A stretch of DNA of 64,000 bases, taken from assembly GCF_001746835.1 (NCBI RefSeq), contig NZ_CP016094.1, positions 1,364,001-1,428,000 on the forward strand, given 5' to 3'. Below, in pieces: positions 27,828 through 35,540 of this stretch (the stretch's first letter is position 1; every line of letters starts with the position of its first letter). The notes under the pieces are model-generated. The model made no database searches and was not told where the DNA came from. It saw only the letters and a program-made list of their open reading frames with translations. Origin of the DNA: Lacunisphaera limnophila (GTDB taxonomy: Bacteria; Verrucomicrobiota; Verrucomicrobiia; Opitutales; Opitutaceae). A program made the translations under genes and the position numbers.

Positions 27828-28442
27828 CTACTTCTTCGGCGCGTGGCGCTTTTCCAGGACGGCGATGGCGTCGCCCAGGGTGCGCTTCTTGGCGTGGAGG
27901 AGGACGATCAGGTGGTAGAGCAGGTCGGCGGCCTCGCCGGCGAATTCCTTGTTGTCCTTTTGCATCGCGGCGAGGGCGGTCTCGACGCCCTCCTCGCCGA
28001 CCTTCTGGGCGCAGCGGGCCACGCCCTCCTGCACGAGGCGGACGGTGTAGCTGGACTTGTCGCCGCTCTTGATGCGGGCGGCAACCACCTGGTCGAGGTG
28101 CGCGAGGAAGCCCGCGCCGCCGGCCAGGGCGCCGTCGCCGAAGCAGCTCACGGTGCCGCGGTGGCAGGTCGGGCCCGCGGGGTGGGCGAGCACGAGCAGC
28201 GTATCGTTGTCGCAATCCACCTCGACGGAAACCACGCGCAGGAAGTTTTTCGAGGACTCGCCCTTGGTCCACAGGCGCTGTTTGGAGCGGCTGAAGAAGG
28301 TGACCTTTTTGGAAGCGAGGGTCTTCTTGAGCGCGGCCTCGTTCATGTAGCCGAGCATCAGCACCTGGCGGGTGCTGGCGTCCTGCACGATGGCGGGCAC
28401 GAGGCCGTCGATTTTCTTCCAGTCGATTTTCGGGAGTTTCAT
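27828..28442 (-). CDS. hisIE: HisIE: phosphoribosyl-AMP cyclohydrolase / phosphoribosyl-ATP pyrophosphatase
   Basis: 204 residues; catalyses steps 2 and 3 of histidine synthesis. The HisI domain (1-105) carries [29 protein letters not shown] and the zinc ligands in CHRGTVSCF. The HisE domain (about 115-200) has [12 protein letters not shown] and [13 protein letters not shown]. Last gene of the his operon, 83 bp after hisF across a palindromic repeat. Confidence 0.96.
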
Positions 28443-28524: not shown

Positions 28525-29292
28525 TCACGGACGGACGATCACGCCTTCGGCAGCGAGGTATTGTTTCAGTTTCGGAATGGGGATGGCGCCGCTGTGGAAG
28601 ACGGAGGCGGCCAGGGCGGCGTCAACGCCGGCGTCGCGGAAGACGTCGCGGAAGTGCTCGGGGGCGCCCGCGCCGCCGGAGGCGACGAGCGGGATGGTGA
28701 GCACGGCGCGCACGAGCTTGAGCTGCGGCAGGTCGTAGCCCTTGCGCTCGCCGTCCTGGTTCATGCAGTTGAGCACGATCTCGCCGGCGCCGAGTTTCTG
28801 CGCCTCGCGGGCCCAGTCCACCGTGCGCCAACGGGTGCCGCGGGTCTTGGTGGGGTCGCCGGTGAACTGCTTGACGAAGTAGTCGCCGTTCTCATGGCGG
28901 CTGTCGATGCCGACGACCACGCACTGCGAGCCGAACTCTGCGGCGAGCTCGCCGAGCAGGGCGGGATTCTCGATCGCGGGGGAGTTGAGCGAGACCTTGT
29001 CGGCGCCGCTGTGGAGCAGGCGGCGGGCGTCGTCGAGCGAGCGGATGCCCCCGGCCACGCAGAAGGGGATATCGATGACCTTCGCGACCCGCGTCACCCA
29101 GTCGGTGGACACGGTGCGGCCGTCGCTGCTGGCGGTGATGTCATAGAACACCAGCTCGTCGGCGCCGGAATCGCGGTAGCGCTGGGCGAGCTCGATGATG
29201 TCGCCCATGTCGACATGGTTGCGGAACTGCACGCCCTTGACCACGCGACCGTCGCGCACGTCGAGGCAGGGGATGAGGCGGCGGGCTAGCAT
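28525..29292 (-). CDS. hisF: Imidazole glycerol phosphate synthase cyclase subunit
   Basis: 255 residues. Works with HisH to turn PRFAR and ammonia into IGP and AICAR. It is a (beta/alpha)8 barrel with catalytic Asp in [13 protein letters not shown] near the N-terminus and Asp in [10 protein letters not shown] near 130. It overlaps the hisA stop region by 7 bases, implying translational coupling. Confidence 0.97.
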
Positions 29293-30014
29293 GCGAGGGC
29301 CTCCGTGAGGGTGAATTTGTTCTCGTAGAGGGCGCGGCCGACGATGGCGCCGGCGGAGCCGGTGGTCCGGAGGACGCGCAGGTCGTCGAGCGAGGAGACG
29401 CCGCCGGAAGCCTGGATCTGGAGCGTGGGGAATTTTTTGACGAGCTCGGCGTAGAGGGCCGAGTTCGGGCCGGTCAGCTTGCCGTCGCGGCTGATGTCGG
29501 TGCAGAGGATGTGTTTCAGCCCGACCGCGAGGTAGCCGGTGAGGAAATCGTCGAGGGCGACCCCGGTCGTCTCCTGCCAGCCGGCGGCGGCGATGCGCGG
29601 GATGCCGGCCGCGTCGAGGCGCACGTCGGGGGACAGGATGATCCTCTCCGGGCCGAAGGACAGGAGCCAGCTGAGGACAAGGTCGGGTTGCCGCACGGCG
29701 AGGCTGCCGACGATCACGCGTTCGACGCCGGCGGCGAGGAGCGCCGCGACCTGGGCCTCGTCGCGGATGCCGCCGCCCGTCTGGACGCGCAGGCCGCTCT
29801 CGCGGGCGAGTTTTTCCACGAGCGGGGTCTGGCGCTTGGCGGGATCCTTGGCGCCATCGAGGTCGACGACGTGGAGCCAGGTGGCGCCGGCGGCCCGGAA
29901 GCCGCGGGCCACGGCGAGCGGGTCGTCGCCGTAGGATTTCTCCTGGTCAAATTTCCCCTCGGTGAGGCGCACGACGCGGCCCCCGCGGAGGTCGATGGCG
30001 GGATAGATGATCAT
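29286..30014 (-). CDS. hisA: ProFAR isomerase
   Basis: 242 residues. Isomerises ProFAR to PRFAR, step 4 of the pathway. Half-barrel duplication signatures are present: [13 protein letters not shown] (catalytic Asp 8), [18 protein letters not shown] and [12 protein letters not shown] (second catalytic Asp). It follows hisH by 46 bp. Confidence 0.97.
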
Positions 30015-30060: not shown

Positions 30061-30654
30061 TCATGCGGGCATCGCCAGGAAGTTCTGGAGCAGGCGGGCG
30101 CCGGCGGCGCCGGAGCGCTCGGGGTGGAACTGGACGCCGGAGAAGTTGGCGCGCTGGACGACGGCGGCGAAGGGGGTGCCGTGGTCGCAGCTGGCCACGG
30201 TGAAGGCGTTCACCGGGCCGGCGAAGCTGTGGACAAAATAGAAGCGCGTGGCCGGGGAGAAGCCGGCCAGCAGCGGGGTGTCCGGGCGGATCGTGAGGGT
30301 GTTCCAGCCCATGTGCGGCACCGTGATGCCGGGGGACTCGGGGAGCAGGGCGACGCGGCCGGGGATGAGCCCGAGCGAAGTCGTCTCGCCCTCGGCGGAC
30401 GATTCAAACATCAGCTGCATGCCGAGGCAGATGCCAAGGACGGGTTGGGTGAGGCCGCGCACGACCTCGACGAGGCCCTTGGCGTGGAGGCGCTTCATGC
30501 CCTCCTGCGCCGAGCCGACGCCGGGCAGGATGACGCGGTCGGCCGCGCGGATGACCGCGGGGTCGGCGGTGAGCTCGCTGGGCACGCCGAGGCGCTCGAG
30601 CGCGAAGCGCACCGAGGCAATGTTGGCGCCACCACTGTCGACGATGGCGAGCAT
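30061..30654 (-). CDS. hisH: Imidazole glycerol phosphate synthase glutaminase subunit
   Basis: 197 residues; a class I glutamine amidotransferase that supplies ammonia to HisF. Catalytic triad: Cys in GICLGMQLMFES, His and Glu in FHPERSG. Its start overlaps the hisB stop by one base. Confidence 0.97.
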   Translation of the reverse strand: MLAIVDSGGANIASVRFALERLGVPSELTADPAVIRAADRVILPGVGSAQEGMKRLHAKGLVEVVRGLTQPVLGICLGMQLMFESSAEGETTSLGLIPGRVALLPESPGITVPHMGWNTLTIRPDTPLLAGFSPATRFYFVHSFAGPVNAFTVASCDHGTPFAAVVQRANFSGVQFHPERSGAAGARLLQNFLAMPA

Positions 30655-31718
30655 CAGAGGACTCCCTTCGTGCTGGGGATGTCGCTCCCGGCGCCGCGGG
30701 CGACGGCGGGCCGGAGGGCGCGGCCGAAGCCCTTGAACAGGGCTTCGATCATGTGGTGGGTGTTGTCGCCCTTCACGGCCATGTGGAGGGTGGCGCCCAG
30801 CGTGGTGGCGAGGGACTGGAAGAAGTGTGGCACGAGCTCGCTCGGCAGCTGGCCCACGTTCTCGCGGGGGAACGCACCCTCGAAGACAAAGTAGGGGCGG
30901 CCGCTGAGATCGATCGAGACCTCAGCCTTCGCCTCATCCATGGGCATCGTGAAACCGTAGCGGCCGATGCCGCGCTTGTCGCCGAGGGCCTGCTTGAGGG
31001 CGGCACCGAGGGCGAGGCCGACGTCCTCGACGGTGTGGTGCTCGTCGATGTGCAGGTCGCCGGTGCACTCGATGACGAGGCTGATGCCGGCGTTGCGTGC
31101 GATCTGGTCGAGCATGTGGTCGAAGAAGCCAAGGCCGGTGGCGAACTTCGCCGGGGCGACGGCATCGAGGTCCACCGTCACGGAAATTTTTGTTTCCTTG
31201 GTCTGGCGCGCGATGACGGCGCGACGCGGGGCGTCGGCGATCTGGCGGGTGATTTCCGTCCAACCGAGGGTCTTCGGGTGATAGCGCAGGCCCGAGACGC
31301 CGAGGGCGGTGGCGAGCTGGAGATCGGTCTCGCGGTCGCCGATGACGTAGGAGGCCTCACGGGACCAGGACGTGTCCTTGAGATAATCGAGGAGGAGACC
31401 GAGCTTGGGTTTCCGGCAGTCGCAGCGGTCGGCCAGGGTGTGCGGGCAGACGCGCACGGCCTCGAAGGTGATGCCTTGCGAGGCGAGGATGGCGATGAGC
31501 AGGTTTTGCAGCGGGCGGAATTCCTCCTCGCGGAAGCTGGGGGTGCCGAGGCCGTCCTGGTTGGTCACCATGACGAAGGTGTAGCCGGCGTCGCGCAGGC
31601 GGCGGAGGGCGGGCACGACCTCGGGCTCGAGGGCAAACTTGTCGAGGCGGTCGATCTGGAAATCGGCGGGCTCGGTGATGAGCGTGCCGTCGCGGTCGAG
31701 GAAGAGGATTTTTTTCAT
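30654..31718 (-). CDS. hisB: HisB: bifunctional histidinol-phosphatase / IGP dehydratase
   Basis: 354 residues; performs steps 6 and 8. The N-terminal HAD phosphatase (about 1-165) has nucleophile motif FLDRDGT, VTNQDG, and a Cys-rich zinc loop VCPHTLADRCDCRKPK. The C-terminal dehydratase (about 175-354) has DHMLDQIARN, DEHHTVED and GDNTHHMIEA metal sites. The fusion is typical of enteric-type operons. Confidence 0.97.
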   Translation of the reverse strand: MKKILFLDRDGTLITEPADFQIDRLDKFALEPEVVPALRRLRDAGYTFVMVTNQDGLGTPSFREEEFRPLQNLLIAILASQGITFEAVRVCPHTLADRCDCRKPKLGLLLDYLKDTSWSREASYVIGDRETDLQLATALGVSGLRYHPKTLGWTEITRQIADAPRRAVIARQTKETKISVTVDLDAVAPAKFATGLGFFDHMLDQIARNAGISLVIECTGDLHIDEHHTVEDVGLALGAALKQALGDKRGIGRYGFTMPMDEAKAEVSIDLSGRPYFVFEGAFPRENVGQLPSELVPHFFQSLATTLGATLHMAVKGDNTHHMIEALFKGFGRALRPAVARGAGSDIPSTKGVL

Positions 31719-31809: not shown

Positions 31810-32874
31810 TTAACCACGGGACAATACCTCCAGGGTCTGGTTGTTTTCCTCGGCGGTGCCGACGGTGAGGCGGATGGTGTTCGGGACGTCCTTGCTGCGG
31901 TCGCGCCAGATGATGCCGGCGGCGCGGCCGGCGGCCATCAGGCGCGCGCCATCGGTGACCTCGATGAGGATGTAGTTGGCGTCGGAGGGCCAGACGCGCT
32001 TGACGACGGCAAGCTGCGGCAAGGCGGCCATCAGGCGCTGGCGCTCGGCCACGAGCTGGCGGACGGATTCGCGGGCGGCGGCCAGGCCATCGGGCGTGAG
32101 GGCGGCCAGCGCGGCCTGCAGCACGGGGGCGGGCACGGGGTAGGGGGCGATGACCTTTTGCAGGATGGCAATGACCGCCGGGTCAGCGATCGTGGTGCCG
32201 ACGCGGGCGCCGGCGAGACCGTAGGCCTTGGAGAGGGTGCGGAGGACGACGAGATTGGGGTGCGAGGGGATTTCCGCCGCGAGGCTGGGCTGGCCGGAGA
32301 AGTCCACGTAGGCCTCGTCGACCACAACCATGGCGCGGCCGGCGAAGGAGCGAACGACCTTCATCACGGCGGTGCGGTCGAGCAGGCCACCGGTGGGGTT
32401 GTTGGGCGAGCAGAGGAAGATGAGCTTCACGTCGGGCGTGACGGCGCGGAGCACGGCGTCGGCATCGAGGGCGAAGTTTTGGTCGCGGAGGAGAGGGACG
32501 CGCACGGTCCGCGCGCCCTGGATATCGGCGGCGACGACGTACATGCCGTAGGTCGGCGGCGTGATGAGGATGGCGTCCTGCCCGGCGCGGCAGAAGGTGC
32601 GCAGGAGGAGATCGATCCCCTCGTCGGAGCCGCGGGTGACGAGCGTCTGGGCGGGGGTGACGCCGTACAGGGTGGCGAGGGTGGCGATCAGGTCGGCGGG
32701 CTGCGGCTCGGGGTAGCGGTTGAGCAGGGGCTGGTGGACCGCGGGGGTCTCGGGATTCTCGTTGGCGTCGAGCCAGACGCGGCCGCCCTTGGATTCCTTG
32801 CGCGCGGAGCTGTAGGGCGCGAGCGCGATGATCTCGGGACGCACGAGGGCGAGGACTTGTTCGACGGCGGTCAT
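31810..32874 (-). CDS. hisC: Histidinol-phosphate aminotransferase
   Basis: 354 residues; a PLP-dependent fold-type I aminotransferase (step 7). LDANENPETP near the N-terminus, TRGSDEGID, CSPNNPTGG and the PLP lysine in TLSKAYGLAGARVG define the family. It lies 67 bp after hisD. Confidence 0.96.
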   Translation of the reverse strand: MTAVEQVLALVRPEIIALAPYSSARKESKGGRVWLDANENPETPAVHQPLLNRYPEPQPADLIATLATLYGVTPAQTLVTRGSDEGIDLLLRTFCRAGQDAILITPPTYGMYVVAADIQGARTVRVPLLRDQNFALDADAVLRAVTPDVKLIFLCSPNNPTGGLLDRTAVMKVVRSFAGRAMVVVDEAYVDFSGQPSLAAEIPSHPNLVVLRTLSKAYGLAGARVGTTIADPAVIAILQKVIAPYPVPAPVLQAALAALTPDGLAAARESVRQLVAERQRLMAALPQLAVVKRVWPSDANYILIEVTDGARLMAAGRAAGIIWRDRSKDVPNTIRLTVGTAEENNQTLEVLSRG

Positions 32875-32941: not shown

Positions 32942-34237
32942 TCATGACGACAGTTTATCCAGCCGCACGCGGACGGCGCGCTGGTGGGCGGCGAGGTTTT
33001 CGGCGAGGGCGAGACGCTCGACGACGGGGCCGAGTTTTTTCAGGCCGCGCGGGGTGGCGGTCTGCACGGTCATGGTGCGGAGGAAATCGCCCAGGCCCAG
33101 GCCGGAGCAGGCGCGGGCCCAGCCATAGGTGGGGAGAACGTGGTTGGTTCCGCTGGCGTAGTCGCCGAGCGACTCGGGGGTCCAGGCGCCGAGGAAGACG
33201 GAACCGGCGGTGGTGAGGCGCGGCAGCAGGGCGCGCGGGTCGGCGACCTGGAGGATGAGGTGCTCGGGGGCGTAGCGGTTGGCGATCGCGACGGCCTCCG
33301 CAGCGGAGGCGGCGAGGATCACGCGGCTCTTTTGCAGGGCCGCGGTGGCGATGGCGCCGCGCGGGAGCAGGGCGAGCTGGCGGTCGAGCTCGGCTTGGAC
33401 GCGGGCGGCGAATTTCGCGGCGAACGCCACGAGGATGACCTGGGAGTCCGGGCCGTGCTCGGCTTGGGAGAGAAGGTCGGCGGCGACGAAGGCGGGCTCG
33501 GCGGCGTGGTCGGCGATGACCATCACCTCGGAGGGGCCGGCGGGCAGGTCGATGGCGGCCGCATCGCGGGAGACCTGAAGTTTGGCCTCGGTGACGAAGC
33601 TGTTACCCGGGCCGAAGAGCTTGTCGCACTTGGGCACGCTGGCGGTGCCATAGGCCATCGCGGCGATGGCCTGGGCGCCGCCGAGCTTGAAGACCTCGGT
33701 GATGCCGCAGAGGCGGGCGGCGAAGAGGATCCACGGGCTGACACGGCCGTCGCGGCCCGGCGGGGTGCAGAGGACGCGCACGGGATTGCCGGCAATCTGC
33801 GACGGCACGCCGAGCATGAGGGCGGTGGAGAAGAGCGGCGCGCTGCCACCGGGGACGTAGAGGCCGACGCATTCGATCGGGCGCGACACCTTTTCGCAGA
33901 CGATGCCGGTCATGGTCTCGACGCGGAGGGGAACCGGGCGCTGGGCGAGGTGAAATTTCCGCAGGTTGCGGTAGGCGCGGCGGAGGGCGGCCTGGTCGGA
34001 GGGTTGCAGGGCCTGCGCGGCGGCGGCGAACTCGGCGTCGCTGACGCGGAGGGAGGTGAGTTTGGCGCCGTCGAATTTCGCGGTGAGCCGCCGCAGGGCG
34101 GCGTCGCCCCCCCGCCGGACCTGGGCGATGATCCCGGCCACGATGGCGGCCGTCTGCGGACCTGCCTTTTGCGCCGGGCGTTGGAGCGCGGCGCGGCGGG
34201 CGGGGGCGGAGAGGGATTTCCAGACGAGGGGTTTCAT
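32942..34237 (-). CDS. hisD: Histidinol dehydrogenase
   Basis: 431 residues; oxidises histidinol to histidine in two NAD-dependent steps. LYVPGGSAPLFSTALM, GGAQAIAAMAYGT, LPAGPSEVMVIAD and SVFLGAWTPESLGDYASGTNH are conserved, the last containing active-site and zinc residues. A REP lies in the 47-bp gap to hisG. Confidence 0.97.
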   Translation of the reverse strand: MKPLVWKSLSAPARRAALQRPAQKAGPQTAAIVAGIIAQVRRGGDAALRRLTAKFDGAKLTSLRVSDAEFAAAAQALQPSDQAALRRAYRNLRKFHLAQRPVPLRVETMTGIVCEKVSRPIECVGLYVPGGSAPLFSTALMLGVPSQIAGNPVRVLCTPPGRDGRVSPWILFAARLCGITEVFKLGGAQAIAAMAYGTASVPKCDKLFGPGNSFVTEAKLQVSRDAAAIDLPAGPSEVMVIADHAAEPAFVAADLLSQAEHGPDSQVILVAFAAKFAARVQAELDRQLALLPRGAIATAALQKSRVILAASAAEAVAIANRYAPEHLILQVADPRALLPRLTTAGSVFLGAWTPESLGDYASGTNHVLPTYGWARACSGLGLGDFLRTMTVQTATPRGLKKLGPVVERLALAENLAAHQRAVRVRLDKLSS

Positions 34238-34284: not shown

Positions 34285-35187
34285 TCAGAGCATCATCTTC
34301 TCAATCGGGAGGACGAGGATGCTGCTGGCGCCGGCCTGCTTGAGGGCGTCCATGGTTTCCCAGAAGACATCCTCGGCGCAGACGGCGTGGAGGGCGACCT
34401 TGGAGTCGTCGCCGGCGAGCGGGAGGATGGTCGGGTTTTCCGAGCCGGGGAGGAGTTTCCGGATCTCGGTCAGGTTGGCCCGGGGGGCGTGGAGCATGAT
34501 GTATTTCGTGCCGGCGGCCTTCTGCACGCCGTCGAGGCGGCGGAGGACGATGTCGAAGGCGTGGGCCTTCTCGGGATTGAGCGGACGGGCGTTGCGTATG
34601 AGGGCGGCGGTGCTCTTGAAGATCGTCTCGACCGCGCGGAGCTTGTTGGCCTCGAGAGTGGAGCCGCTGGAAACGAGGTCGCAGATCACGTCGGCGAGGC
34701 CGAGGCGCGGGGCGATCTCGACGGAGCCGCTGAGGGTGACGATTTCGGCGGGCACGCCCTGCTGGGCGAAGTAGCGCTTGGTGAGCTGCGGGTAGGAGGT
34801 GGCGATGCGCAGGCCGGCGAGATCCTTGAGGCCGGTGTAGGGGCGTTCCTCGGGGAGGGCGATGGCGAGGCGGCAGCCGCCGAAGTCCAGGGTGCGCTCG
34901 ACCACGTAGGCGCTGGTCGTGCCGCGCTCGAGGGCGGATTCCTCGAGGACGTTCTGACCGACGATGCCGAGGTCGCACACGCCGTCCATGACGAGCTGCG
35001 GGATGTCGTCGTCCCGGACAAAGAGGAGATCGAGGGGGAAGTTGTCGGCGTGGAGGAGGAGTTTCTCCTTGGGGGACTTGACCTTGATGCCGCAGGCCTT
35101 GAGCAGGTCGAGGGAGTCAGTGGAGAGGCGGCCGCTCTTCTGGATGGCCAGGCGGAGGCGGTCTTTGGGGAGGTTGGCGGGAGGCAT
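34285..35187 (-). CDS. hisG: ATP phosphoribosyltransferase, long form
   Basis: 300 residues; first and committed step, joining ATP and PRPP. RLAIQKSGRLS at the N-terminus and the PRPP loop region SSGSTLEANKLR are conserved. At 300 residues it is the hexameric long form with a C-terminal ACT-like domain (about 225-300) that binds histidine for feedback inhibition, so no HisZ partner is needed. First structural gene after the attenuator. Confidence 0.97.
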   Translation of the reverse strand: MPPANLPKDRLRLAIQKSGRLSTDSLDLLKACGIKVKSPKEKLLLHADNFPLDLLFVRDDDIPQLVMDGVCDLGIVGQNVLEESALERGTTSAYVVERTLDFGGCRLAIALPEERPYTGLKDLAGLRIATSYPQLTKRYFAQQGVPAEIVTLSGSVEIAPRLGLADVICDLVSSGSTLEANKLRAVETIFKSTAALIRNARPLNPEKAHAFDIVLRRLDGVQKAAGTKYIMLHAPRANLTEIRKLLPGSENPTILPLAGDDSKVALHAVCAEDVFWETMDALKQAGASSILVLPIEKMML

Positions 35188-35267: not shown

Positions 35268-35306
35268 GGAAAATAAAAACCCCGGCGGGACAGGCCTGCC
35301 GGGGTT
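35268..35306 (-). terminator. Attenuator terminator upstream of hisG
   Basis: Minus strand: 9-bp stem AACCCCGGC/GCCGGGGTT (35306-35298 with 35286-35278) followed by TTTTTATTTT. It sits between the leader peptide and hisG with no other gene to terminate, so it is an attenuator. Confidence 0.88.
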
Positions 35307-35328
35307 AGGAAAATCGTCTCATCACCCA

Positions 35329-35365
35329 GGGAAGGCACATCCAGGCCTTCCCCGCGAGGGAAGGC
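35329..35365 (-). promoter_or_regulatory. Alternative-pairing segments of the his leader
   Basis: On the RNA, GCCTTCCC occurs at 35365-35358 and again at 35336-35329, with the complement GGGAAGGC between them (35352-35345). The middle copy can pair with only one of the outer two. The first copy overlaps the leader stop codon, where a ribosome stalled on the His codons would mask it. This is classic attenuator logic; how the choice feeds into the terminator is inferred. Confidence 0.7.
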
Positions 35366-35400
35366 TAGGCTTCGTGGTGATGGTGGTGGTTGAGGATCAT
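35365..35400 (-). CDS. hisL: his operon leader peptide (five consecutive His)
   Basis: An 11-residue frame, MILNHHHHHEA, ends at TAG. It lies 178 bp upstream of hisG on the same strand and is followed by the alternative-pairing segments and the terminator. Stalling at the His codons when charged tRNA-His is scarce would favour readthrough into hisG. It resembles the enteric hisL (seven His) in design but not in flanking sequence. Confidence 0.88.
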   Translation of the reverse strand: MILNHHHHHEA

Positions 35401-35540
35401 GGGATGATCGTGAATTGAAAAAGTCCGGGAATGGGTCGCGGGGCAAGGATTTTTTCTCGGCGGGGGCGGCGGGAGACCAGCCCGGAGCCGTGTAAATTGG
35501 TCCGCGCCAAGTATCCGGTGGCGGCCCGTCTGAATAAAAA

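Follow-up and report, generated by a model that had tools for sequence, protein, structure and literature searches.

Attenuation of the his operon by the ribosome is textbook knowledge in enteric bacteria. In the 64,000-nt stretch of the Lacunisphaera limnophila genome that was analyzed here (referred to below as the window), a first-pass annotation described a histidine attenuator upstream of hisG and proposed that it had either evolved independently or was a wider ancestral device. The locus therefore raises the question of whether an attenuator of the enteric kind is present in this member of the Opitutaceae and, if so, how it came to be there. The results described below argue for a ribosome-dependent His attenuator of the enteric His_leader type that was acquired, together with its operon and as a package, by an ancestor of a small number of Opitutaceae genera, a reading based on sequence comparisons to which we assign a probability of roughly 0.85.

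The leader and the operon behind it

The five-His leader peptide MILNHHHHHEA, the three complementary octamers, and the terminator of the first description were all present on the minus strand (Table 1). The strong terminator, with a GC-rich E:F stem (CCCCGGC/GCCGGGG; 35304..35280, minus strand), is there but not immediately before hisG, as had been stated; the hisG start at 35187 is ∼80 nt past its end. The octamers had been presented as mutually exclusive pairings. They are, but octamers alone do not make a switch; an antiterminator is needed, and the D:E pairing, in which D plus the bases just 5′ of D pair with the terminator arm and loop E, is predicted to provide it. This antiterminator and a segment, G, with predicted complementarity to the His codons are additions to the earlier description.

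Table 1. Coordinates of the leader segments, putative promoter, and his genes within the window
Feature	Position	Strand	Sequence, model match, or remark
Putative −35 box	35441..35446	minus	TTGCCC; weak −10 CTTTTT at 35423..35418, 17 nt downstream
Leader peptide ORF	35400..35365	minus	MILNHHHHHEA, ATG..TAG, 11 codons; ATG ATC CTC AAC CAC CAC CAT CAC CAC GAA GCC TAG
Segment A	35374..35388	minus	control codons, five tandem His codons (CAC CAC CAT CAC CAC)
Segment B	35358..35365	minus	GCCUUCCC; starts at final base of stop codon
Segment C	35345..35352	minus	GGGAAGGC; partner, B or D
Segment D	35329..35336	minus	GCCUUCCC; partner, C or E
Segment G	35320..35327	minus	GGGUGAUG; complementary to His codons
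Segment E	35298..35304	minus	terminator 5′ arm; loop, 35297..35287
Segment F	35280..35286	minus	terminator 3′ arm
U-tract of intrinsic terminator	35270..35279	minus	TTTTTATTTT
hisG	34285..35187	minus	TIGR00070 and TIGR03455 above cut-off
hisD	32942..34237	minus	TIGR00069
hisC	31810..32874	minus	TIGR01141
hisB, bifunctional (hisNB fusion)	30654..31718	minus	NF003937, 525 bits; TIGR01261, 210 bits
hisH	30061..30654	minus	TIGR01855
hisA	29286..30014	minus	TIGR00007
hisF	28525..29292	minus	TIGR00735
hisIE, bifunctional	27828..28442	minus	NF002747

Runs of five CAY codons are rare. One was found in the window compared to 0.01 expected, and a run with TAG close behind it occurs a single time in the 4.2-Mb genome. 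The 161-nt stretch that includes the leader folds with a z score of −3.06, better than 199 of 200 shuffled versions.

Eight codirectional his genes follow on the 3′ side of the leader. They make up a complete his operon with the order hisGDC[NB]HAF[IE] and both the hisNB and hisIE fusions, which is the order and the pair of fusions given for E. coli in the available portions of two papers (PMC8305728 and PMC1963479). Thus, as far as sequence goes, the evidence favors the proposal that a probable Verrucomicrobium carries a his operon attenuator. The flanking sequence had been described as unrelated, which is not fully accurate, since a homologous his operon forms the downstream flank.

The leader was compared with those of relatives in a set of 30 distinct Opitutaceae leaders that precede the window's type of hisG, the window's own leader included. 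Leaders that repeated genomes already used (L032-L034, L036-L041, L043, L045, and L052) were not recounted, and five pairs were compared for distinctness (L125-L128 and L131 were identical to L046, L042, L050, L048, and L051). The same architecture was found in all 30 leaders. Each has a His-rich ORF, with five His codons in 23 leaders, four in 3, three in 3, and six in 1. Within the genus, 20 genomes were searched in addition to the window's own, and 18 of them yielded a readable leader; the remaining two were a genome with a 33-residue piece of HisG (G004) and one without a HisG match (G013).

MAFFT placed segments wrongly in several rows, and a model-fitted alignment (30 rows, 29 of them distinct over the aligned stretch) was therefore used. 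The first model fit drew in 14 antisense terminator pieces, which were removed by refitting at an E value of 1e-10. In this alignment, which was fitted to C:D and E:F and so biases pair counts in favor of those two, 100% of the C:D cells were paired, with a compensatory change at one pair, and 98.8% of the E:F cells were paired, with compensatory changes at three pairs. Taken together, the two pairings had 99.3% of cells paired and four pairs, eight cells in all, that had changed on both sides. Not one of 500 shuffles had as many changed pairs or changed cells, as large a share of paired cells, or as high a covariation score. The count of pair types was unexceptional (72 of the 500 shuffles reached it).

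Pairing B:C was almost invariant (98.7% of cells paired) and thus carries no covariation information, and D:E had 82.8% of cells paired and three pairs changed on both sides. For these two pairings together, 91.0% of cells were paired, a value as high in 5 of 500 shuffles, and the covariation score exceeded all but 6 of the 500; pairs with changes on both sides were no more numerous than in shuffles (201 of 500 as high). The pairing of the His codons with G (90.4% of cells paired) was without covariation, and a version shifted by three columns gave a higher covariation score. The alignment of relatives' leaders that had been suggested as a check has yielded compensatory changes in C:D and E:F and, more weakly, in D:E. 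The mutually exclusive terminator and antiterminator pairings are supported by covariation, strongly for C:D and E:F and moderately for D:E.

The start of the leader transcript can be proposed from conserved boxes. The sequence CTTGC is located 41 to 51 nt 5′ of the start codon in 29 of the 30 leaders, compared to a background of 0.034 per 60 nt further upstream, and a 17-nt spacing to a weak −10 was read by eye in many leader rows. A general promoter scan returned no promoter. If these boxes are used, the transcript would start only ∼10 nt before the ATG; both the promoter and the start site are putative. Shine-Dalgarno-like sequences (AGGAG, GGAGG, GAGG, or AGGA) were found 5′ of the ORF in none of the 30 leaders, and translation of the ORF is therefore an assumption.

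Predicted folding and proposed ribosome-dependent switching

In the proposed mechanism, a shortage of His-tRNA would stall the ribosome on the His codons, where it would cover A and leave B exposed. Segment B would then pair with C, leaving D free to pair with the 5′ arm and loop of the terminator (D:E), and RNA polymerase would continue into hisG. With ample His-tRNA, the ribosome would get to the stop codon, which abuts B, and cover B, so that C:D would form before E is made, E:F would fold, and transcription would end. In a leader that is not translated, the His codons would pair with G, the presumed role of this segment, and the terminator would form.

In order to evaluate this mechanism, the 30 leaders were folded with the bases under the ribosome kept open and with RNA lengths varied. 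For a ribosome stalled on the first His codon and RNA that reached the loop of E, B:C was predicted in 29 leaders and D:E in all 30. When the ribosome was placed on the stop codon, C:D was predicted in 30 of 30 leaders for RNA that ended before E, and E:F in 29 of 30 for full-length RNA. Without a ribosome, the full-length RNA gave E:F in every leader, and the RNA that ended before E paired the ORF with the D-to-G stretch in 27 of 30.

Geometry and constrained folding agreed in part with selection of the fold by ribosome position, and some of the predictions were contrary to the mechanism. For RNA reaching the loop of E, D:E was still predicted in 20 of 30 leaders when the ribosome occupied the stop codon and in 26 when no ribosome was present. 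For RNA ending before E, C:D competed with B:C at the first-His stall (15 versus 14 of 30 leaders) and prevailed at the last-His stall (27 versus 3). In full-length RNA, a stalled ribosome did not keep the terminator from prevailing (27 to 30 of 30 leaders). Because the full-length RNA favors the terminator in all states, antitermination would have to depend on how fast, and in what order, the RNA is made.

The E. coli leader behaved in the same manner. With a stalled ribosome and RNA ending before F, B:C and D:E formed; with the ribosome on the stop codon, C:D formed before E was made and D:E before F was made; and the full-length leader gave the terminator in all ribosome states. Since the E. 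coli leader has equal weak points, these do not separate the Opitutaceae leader from a working one.

Controls in which the D and E stretches were shuffled indicated which pairings depend on the actual sequences. D:E pairings of at least 8 bp formed in 115 of 300 shuffled controls versus 30 of 30 real leaders, and C:D pairings of at least 7 bp formed in 28 of 300 versus 28 of 30. The contrast was weaker for the pairing of the ORF with D/G, which had 7 bp or more in 173 of the 300 controls versus 27 of 30 real leaders. B:C was hardly lowered by this shuffling, which left B and C themselves intact.

The leader might instead be a relic that came with the operon and whose response to histidine is gone, the hairpin now serving as a fixed partial terminator or as a stabilizer of the mRNA 5′ end. 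Three of the 30 leaders are down to three His codons, and the missing Shine-Dalgarno-like sequences are also in accord with such a loss. However, the His codons, the spacing from the stop codon to B, and the alternative pairings have been kept across leaders whose HisG identity is as low as ∼72%, and C:D and E:F are maintained by compensatory changes, so that a relic seems very unlikely. From the leader sequences, we infer that the attenuator would respond to histidine.

Relatives of the leader and origin of the operon

The Rfam His_leader model, RF00514, aligned with the window leader over its full length (model positions 1 to 126 of 126 at 35383..35271 on the minus strand, before hisG) with a score of 45.6 bits (E value, 3.7e-6 in a 501-base search), which is 3.4 bits short of the gathering score of 49 bits. 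It also aligned with the leaders of two other genomes, G211 (45 bits) and G199 (38.3 bits). At the gathering score, RF00514 had no match in the 64-kb window or at L002-L020, L048, L129, or L131, and it passed this score at 8 of 8 and 4 of 5 gammaproteobacterial loci in two sets. Judged by its alignment to the model, the window leader is a divergent relative of the Rfam His_leader and, by the strict threshold, just outside the family, which suggests that the Rfam gathering line misses divergent members.

The relationship was also apparent in the reverse direction. A model built solely from 11 Opitutaceae leaders (R1) found the leaders of E. coli (E value, 9.8e-10), Erwinia (3.3e-9), and Aeromonas (2.8e-6) in a search of nine loci, in which it missed those of Pasteurella, Pseudoalteromonas, Deinococcus, Bacteroides, and Parabacteroides. 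It found the leader at 11 of 12 further gammaproteobacterial loci, the twelfth (L084) having only 75 nt upstream, and thus at 14 of the 17 gammaproteobacterial leaders tested, that of E. coli included. R1 matched a Spirochaetales leader with an E value of 0.0025, found none of seven Bacteroidota leaders, and found no leader before hisG at 26 native verrucomicrobial loci. An 8-bit R1 match (E value, 3.4) at one of these native loci, L143, was a terminator piece far from the hisG start.

These comparisons bear on the possibility that the attenuator evolved independently in the Opitutaceae before an operon of other origin, its enteric likeness being due to convergence. His-codon attenuators probably arose more than once: the leaders of Bacteroidota differ in layout, and in the portions of PMC9413887 available, candidates from Firmicutes are unmatched by RF00514. 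A leader that scores below the Rfam gathering line would also be in keeping with convergence. Against this, the operon behind the leader is the enteric one, the order of stop codon, B, C, D, GUGG element, and terminator equals that of E. coli segment by segment, and the Opitutaceae model detects the E. coli leader. Convergence is thus highly improbable, and acquisition of the leader along with the operon is the preferred reading.

The his genes themselves point to transfer. The family sample consisted of 150 Opitutaceae genomes from 48 genera, 142 of which had a HisG match. The window HisG is 53 to 62% identical to gammaproteobacterial and Deinococcus-plasmid HisG. In the family, HisG of 13 other genomes is 74 to 84% identical to that of the window, whereas HisG of 128 of the 142 genomes is 26 to 33% identical, and none of the full-length matches in the sample fell between 33% and 74%. 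The 14 genomes with the window type of HisG represent 3 of the 48 genera; inside the genus, HisG identity is 78 to 92%.

Other genes of the operon follow the same division. Among 12 genomes with the acquired operon, HisD is 75 to 100% identical, versus 37 to 45% to that of 26 native genomes, and HisF is 79 to 100% identical, versus 45 to 50%. Fused hisB scored above the cut-off in 15 of 16 genomes with window-type HisG, the sixteenth being broken by a contig end, and in none of 26 genomes with native HisG. In the 12 acquired genomes, hisG, hisD, and hisF are on one contig within ∼7 kb. Second copies of related genes were also seen: G012 has a second HisD-like gene (G012:C1:3446095-3447309) that is 40% identical to the window hisD, and the window's own genome has a second HisF-like gene (G000:C1:2468322-2469065; 35% identical); either may perhaps be left over from the native pathway.

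In HisG trees of 111 and 49 rows, the Opitutaceae set formed one clade, far from native Verrucomicrobiota and beside Gammaproteobacteria and, when they were added, two Deinococcus plasmids (support for the joint clade, 100/96), with long branches flagged in both runs. HisG of the Opitutaceae is thus grouped with the enteric type as sister to Gammaproteobacteria plus Deinococcus plasmids and is not nested in Gammaproteobacteria.

In a sample of 288 genomes from the phylum, R1 matched 24, of which six, all from genera g1 and g28, had an E value of 7e-22 or better. Among the other 18 genomes, E values began at 3e-6, and the loci of nine of them (L153-L161) were checked. Those at L153, L155, and L156 were plain terminators; L159 alone of the nine has a three-CAY run near the match, and this run lies within the apparent terminal part of a longer ORF read in a different frame. 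RF00514, at E values up to 0.001, matched 12 of the 288 genomes. In the window's own genome, G199, and G211, the match precedes hisG and is accompanied by a His ORF. The nine other genomes contributed ten loci, whose 1.7 to 3.1 kb contained no hisG and, at the match and on its strand, no His-rich ORF. Three alphaproteobacterial loci with a related hisG (L087, L089, and L110) had no His leader.

Related hisG genes of several phyla do have His-rich leaders in front of them, as would be expected if the attenuator were ancestral to the phylum, or to bacteria in general, inherited vertically in these genera and lost elsewhere. Such a history would demand loss and replacement in almost all other genera. 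Furthermore, the great majority of HisG-bearing family genomes (128 of 142) have a HisG of only 26 to 33% identity, hisG, hisD, and hisF are at least 40 kb apart in ten single-contig native genomes, and the strong R1 matches are restricted to the six genomes of genera g1 and g28. Vertical descent is therefore extremely unlikely. The suggestion that the device is either independently evolved or ancestral found no support: the enteric leader and operon are present in 3 of the 48 genera sampled and were not seen at the 26 native hisG loci, and from these sequence comparisons the attenuator is probably neither independently evolved nor ancestral in the phylum.

Wider meaning and comparison with known systems

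Attenuators of the His_leader class need a ribosome close behind RNA polymerase. Conservation of such an attenuator in the Opitutaceae would accordingly be indirect evidence for coupling of transcription and translation in Verrucomicrobiota, of which we know of no test. In this host lineage, which is new for the operon, the cis-acting control is present as well, and it requires no regulator protein. We consider it evenly balanced whether the textbook attenuator crosses from phylum to phylum along with its operon and remains functional in the Opitutaceae, where translation of its ORF would begin close to the 5′ end of the RNA and with no Shine-Dalgarno sequence. If so, ribosomes and RNA polymerase would be tightly coupled in Verrucomicrobiota, the attenuator would be a portable, host-independent regulator for which no regulatory protein needs to be transferred, and a second instance, in transit, would be provided by the Deinococcus plasmids.

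Very few horizontal transfers of amino acid attenuators are reported in the available portion of PMC3766115. The Opitutaceae add a well-supported case, in three genera of one family, and the Deinococcus plasmids are probably another. His leaders are named in gammaproteobacteria and Firmicutes only in the accessible part of PMC4833913, in which the terms "Verrucomicrobia" and "Opitut" do not occur. The word stem "Verrucomicrobi" is likewise absent from the accessible text of a review of his operon evolution (PMC10138114). Among the matches listed in searches of the open-license literature, with subscription papers mostly outside this scope, there was no report of a his attenuator for Verrucomicrobia/Verrucomicrobiota or Deinococcus.

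In the part of PMC9413887 available, His-leader attenuators are proposed for the Bacillus cereus group, Eubacteriales, and Erysipelotrichales. Like the Opitutaceae leaders, these candidates have a His-rich leader peptide and a terminator and antiterminator before his operons, and joint transfer of the his operon and attenuator is suspected in Lutispora. Unlike the Opitutaceae leaders, which are of the enteric type, they had no RF00514 match in that source and are hence distinct attenuators. The transfer proposed here also resembles the hisNB operon transfers in the available text of PMC1963479, in which Campylobacter and the CFB group received whole enteric-type operons from Gammaproteobacteria; the stem "Verrucomicrobi" is absent from the main text of that paper as available.

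Leaders of other layouts were seen before related hisG genes. In Chitinophagaceae and relatives (L090-L109, Bacteroidota among them), a compact His-rich leader ORF, for example, MNSNNHTHHHFLTNR, is located 110 to 171 nt before hisG and is followed by a segment seemingly complementary to the His codons and then by a terminator, by eye a different attenuator layout; none of six such loci scanned had an RF00514 match at gathering. A Spirochaetales metagenome-assembled genome (L111) has the leader ORF MNRNHYSIHHHLMINRP and a terminator-like hairpin 115 nt before a related hisG. In a Pasteurella multocida record labeled as a plasmid (L165:2090-2992), two genes, annotated as hypothetical and as a Vat family streptogramin A acetyltransferase, lie between hisG and hisD.

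The his operons on Deinococcus plasmids pDEIPR01 (L162) and pRadio1 (L163) resemble those of the Opitutaceae in their fused hisB and hisIE and in their leader ORFs, MYVFSHHHVS and MFVDVHHHCR, behind which come segments like B, C, and D and then a hairpin. They differ in that the clusters have no annotated hisC and the leaders have only three His codons and a weak U-tract. The Deinococcus leaders gave no RF00514 match at E values up to 0.1 and no R1 match. In their leader regions (L162:1200-1350 and L163:1218-1370), the hairpin located near hisG is strong and its U-tract poor; these regions possibly represent a variant of the attenuator that acts on translation. On the Deinococcus radiophilus plasmid, a gene annotated as an IS630 family transposase (L163:3722-4694) lies between hisD and hisB, and a TPP riboswitch is located 5′ of thiC on the Deinococcus proteolyticus plasmid (L162:8098-8217).

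The closest comparison is with hisL of E. coli and Salmonella. The Opitutaceae peptide is shorter, with 11 amino acids and mostly five His residues, whereas that of E. coli (L164) has seven; its leader has GC-rich segments, no Shine-Dalgarno-like sequence was seen, and the start codon is close behind the putative promoter, also unlike in E. coli. In other respects the leaders correspond. As in E. coli and Salmonella, a poly-His ORF ends at UAG with B directly past the stop codon, B:C and C:D are mutually exclusive, D:E is the predicted antiterminator, and a GC-rich E:F stem is followed by a U-tract. As in E. coli, a GUGG element (GUGGUG in E. coli itself) is opposite the His codons, equal folds are predicted at equal ribosome positions, and the leader precedes eight his genes in the same order with hisNB and hisIE fused (E. 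coli order from the available portion of PMC1963479).
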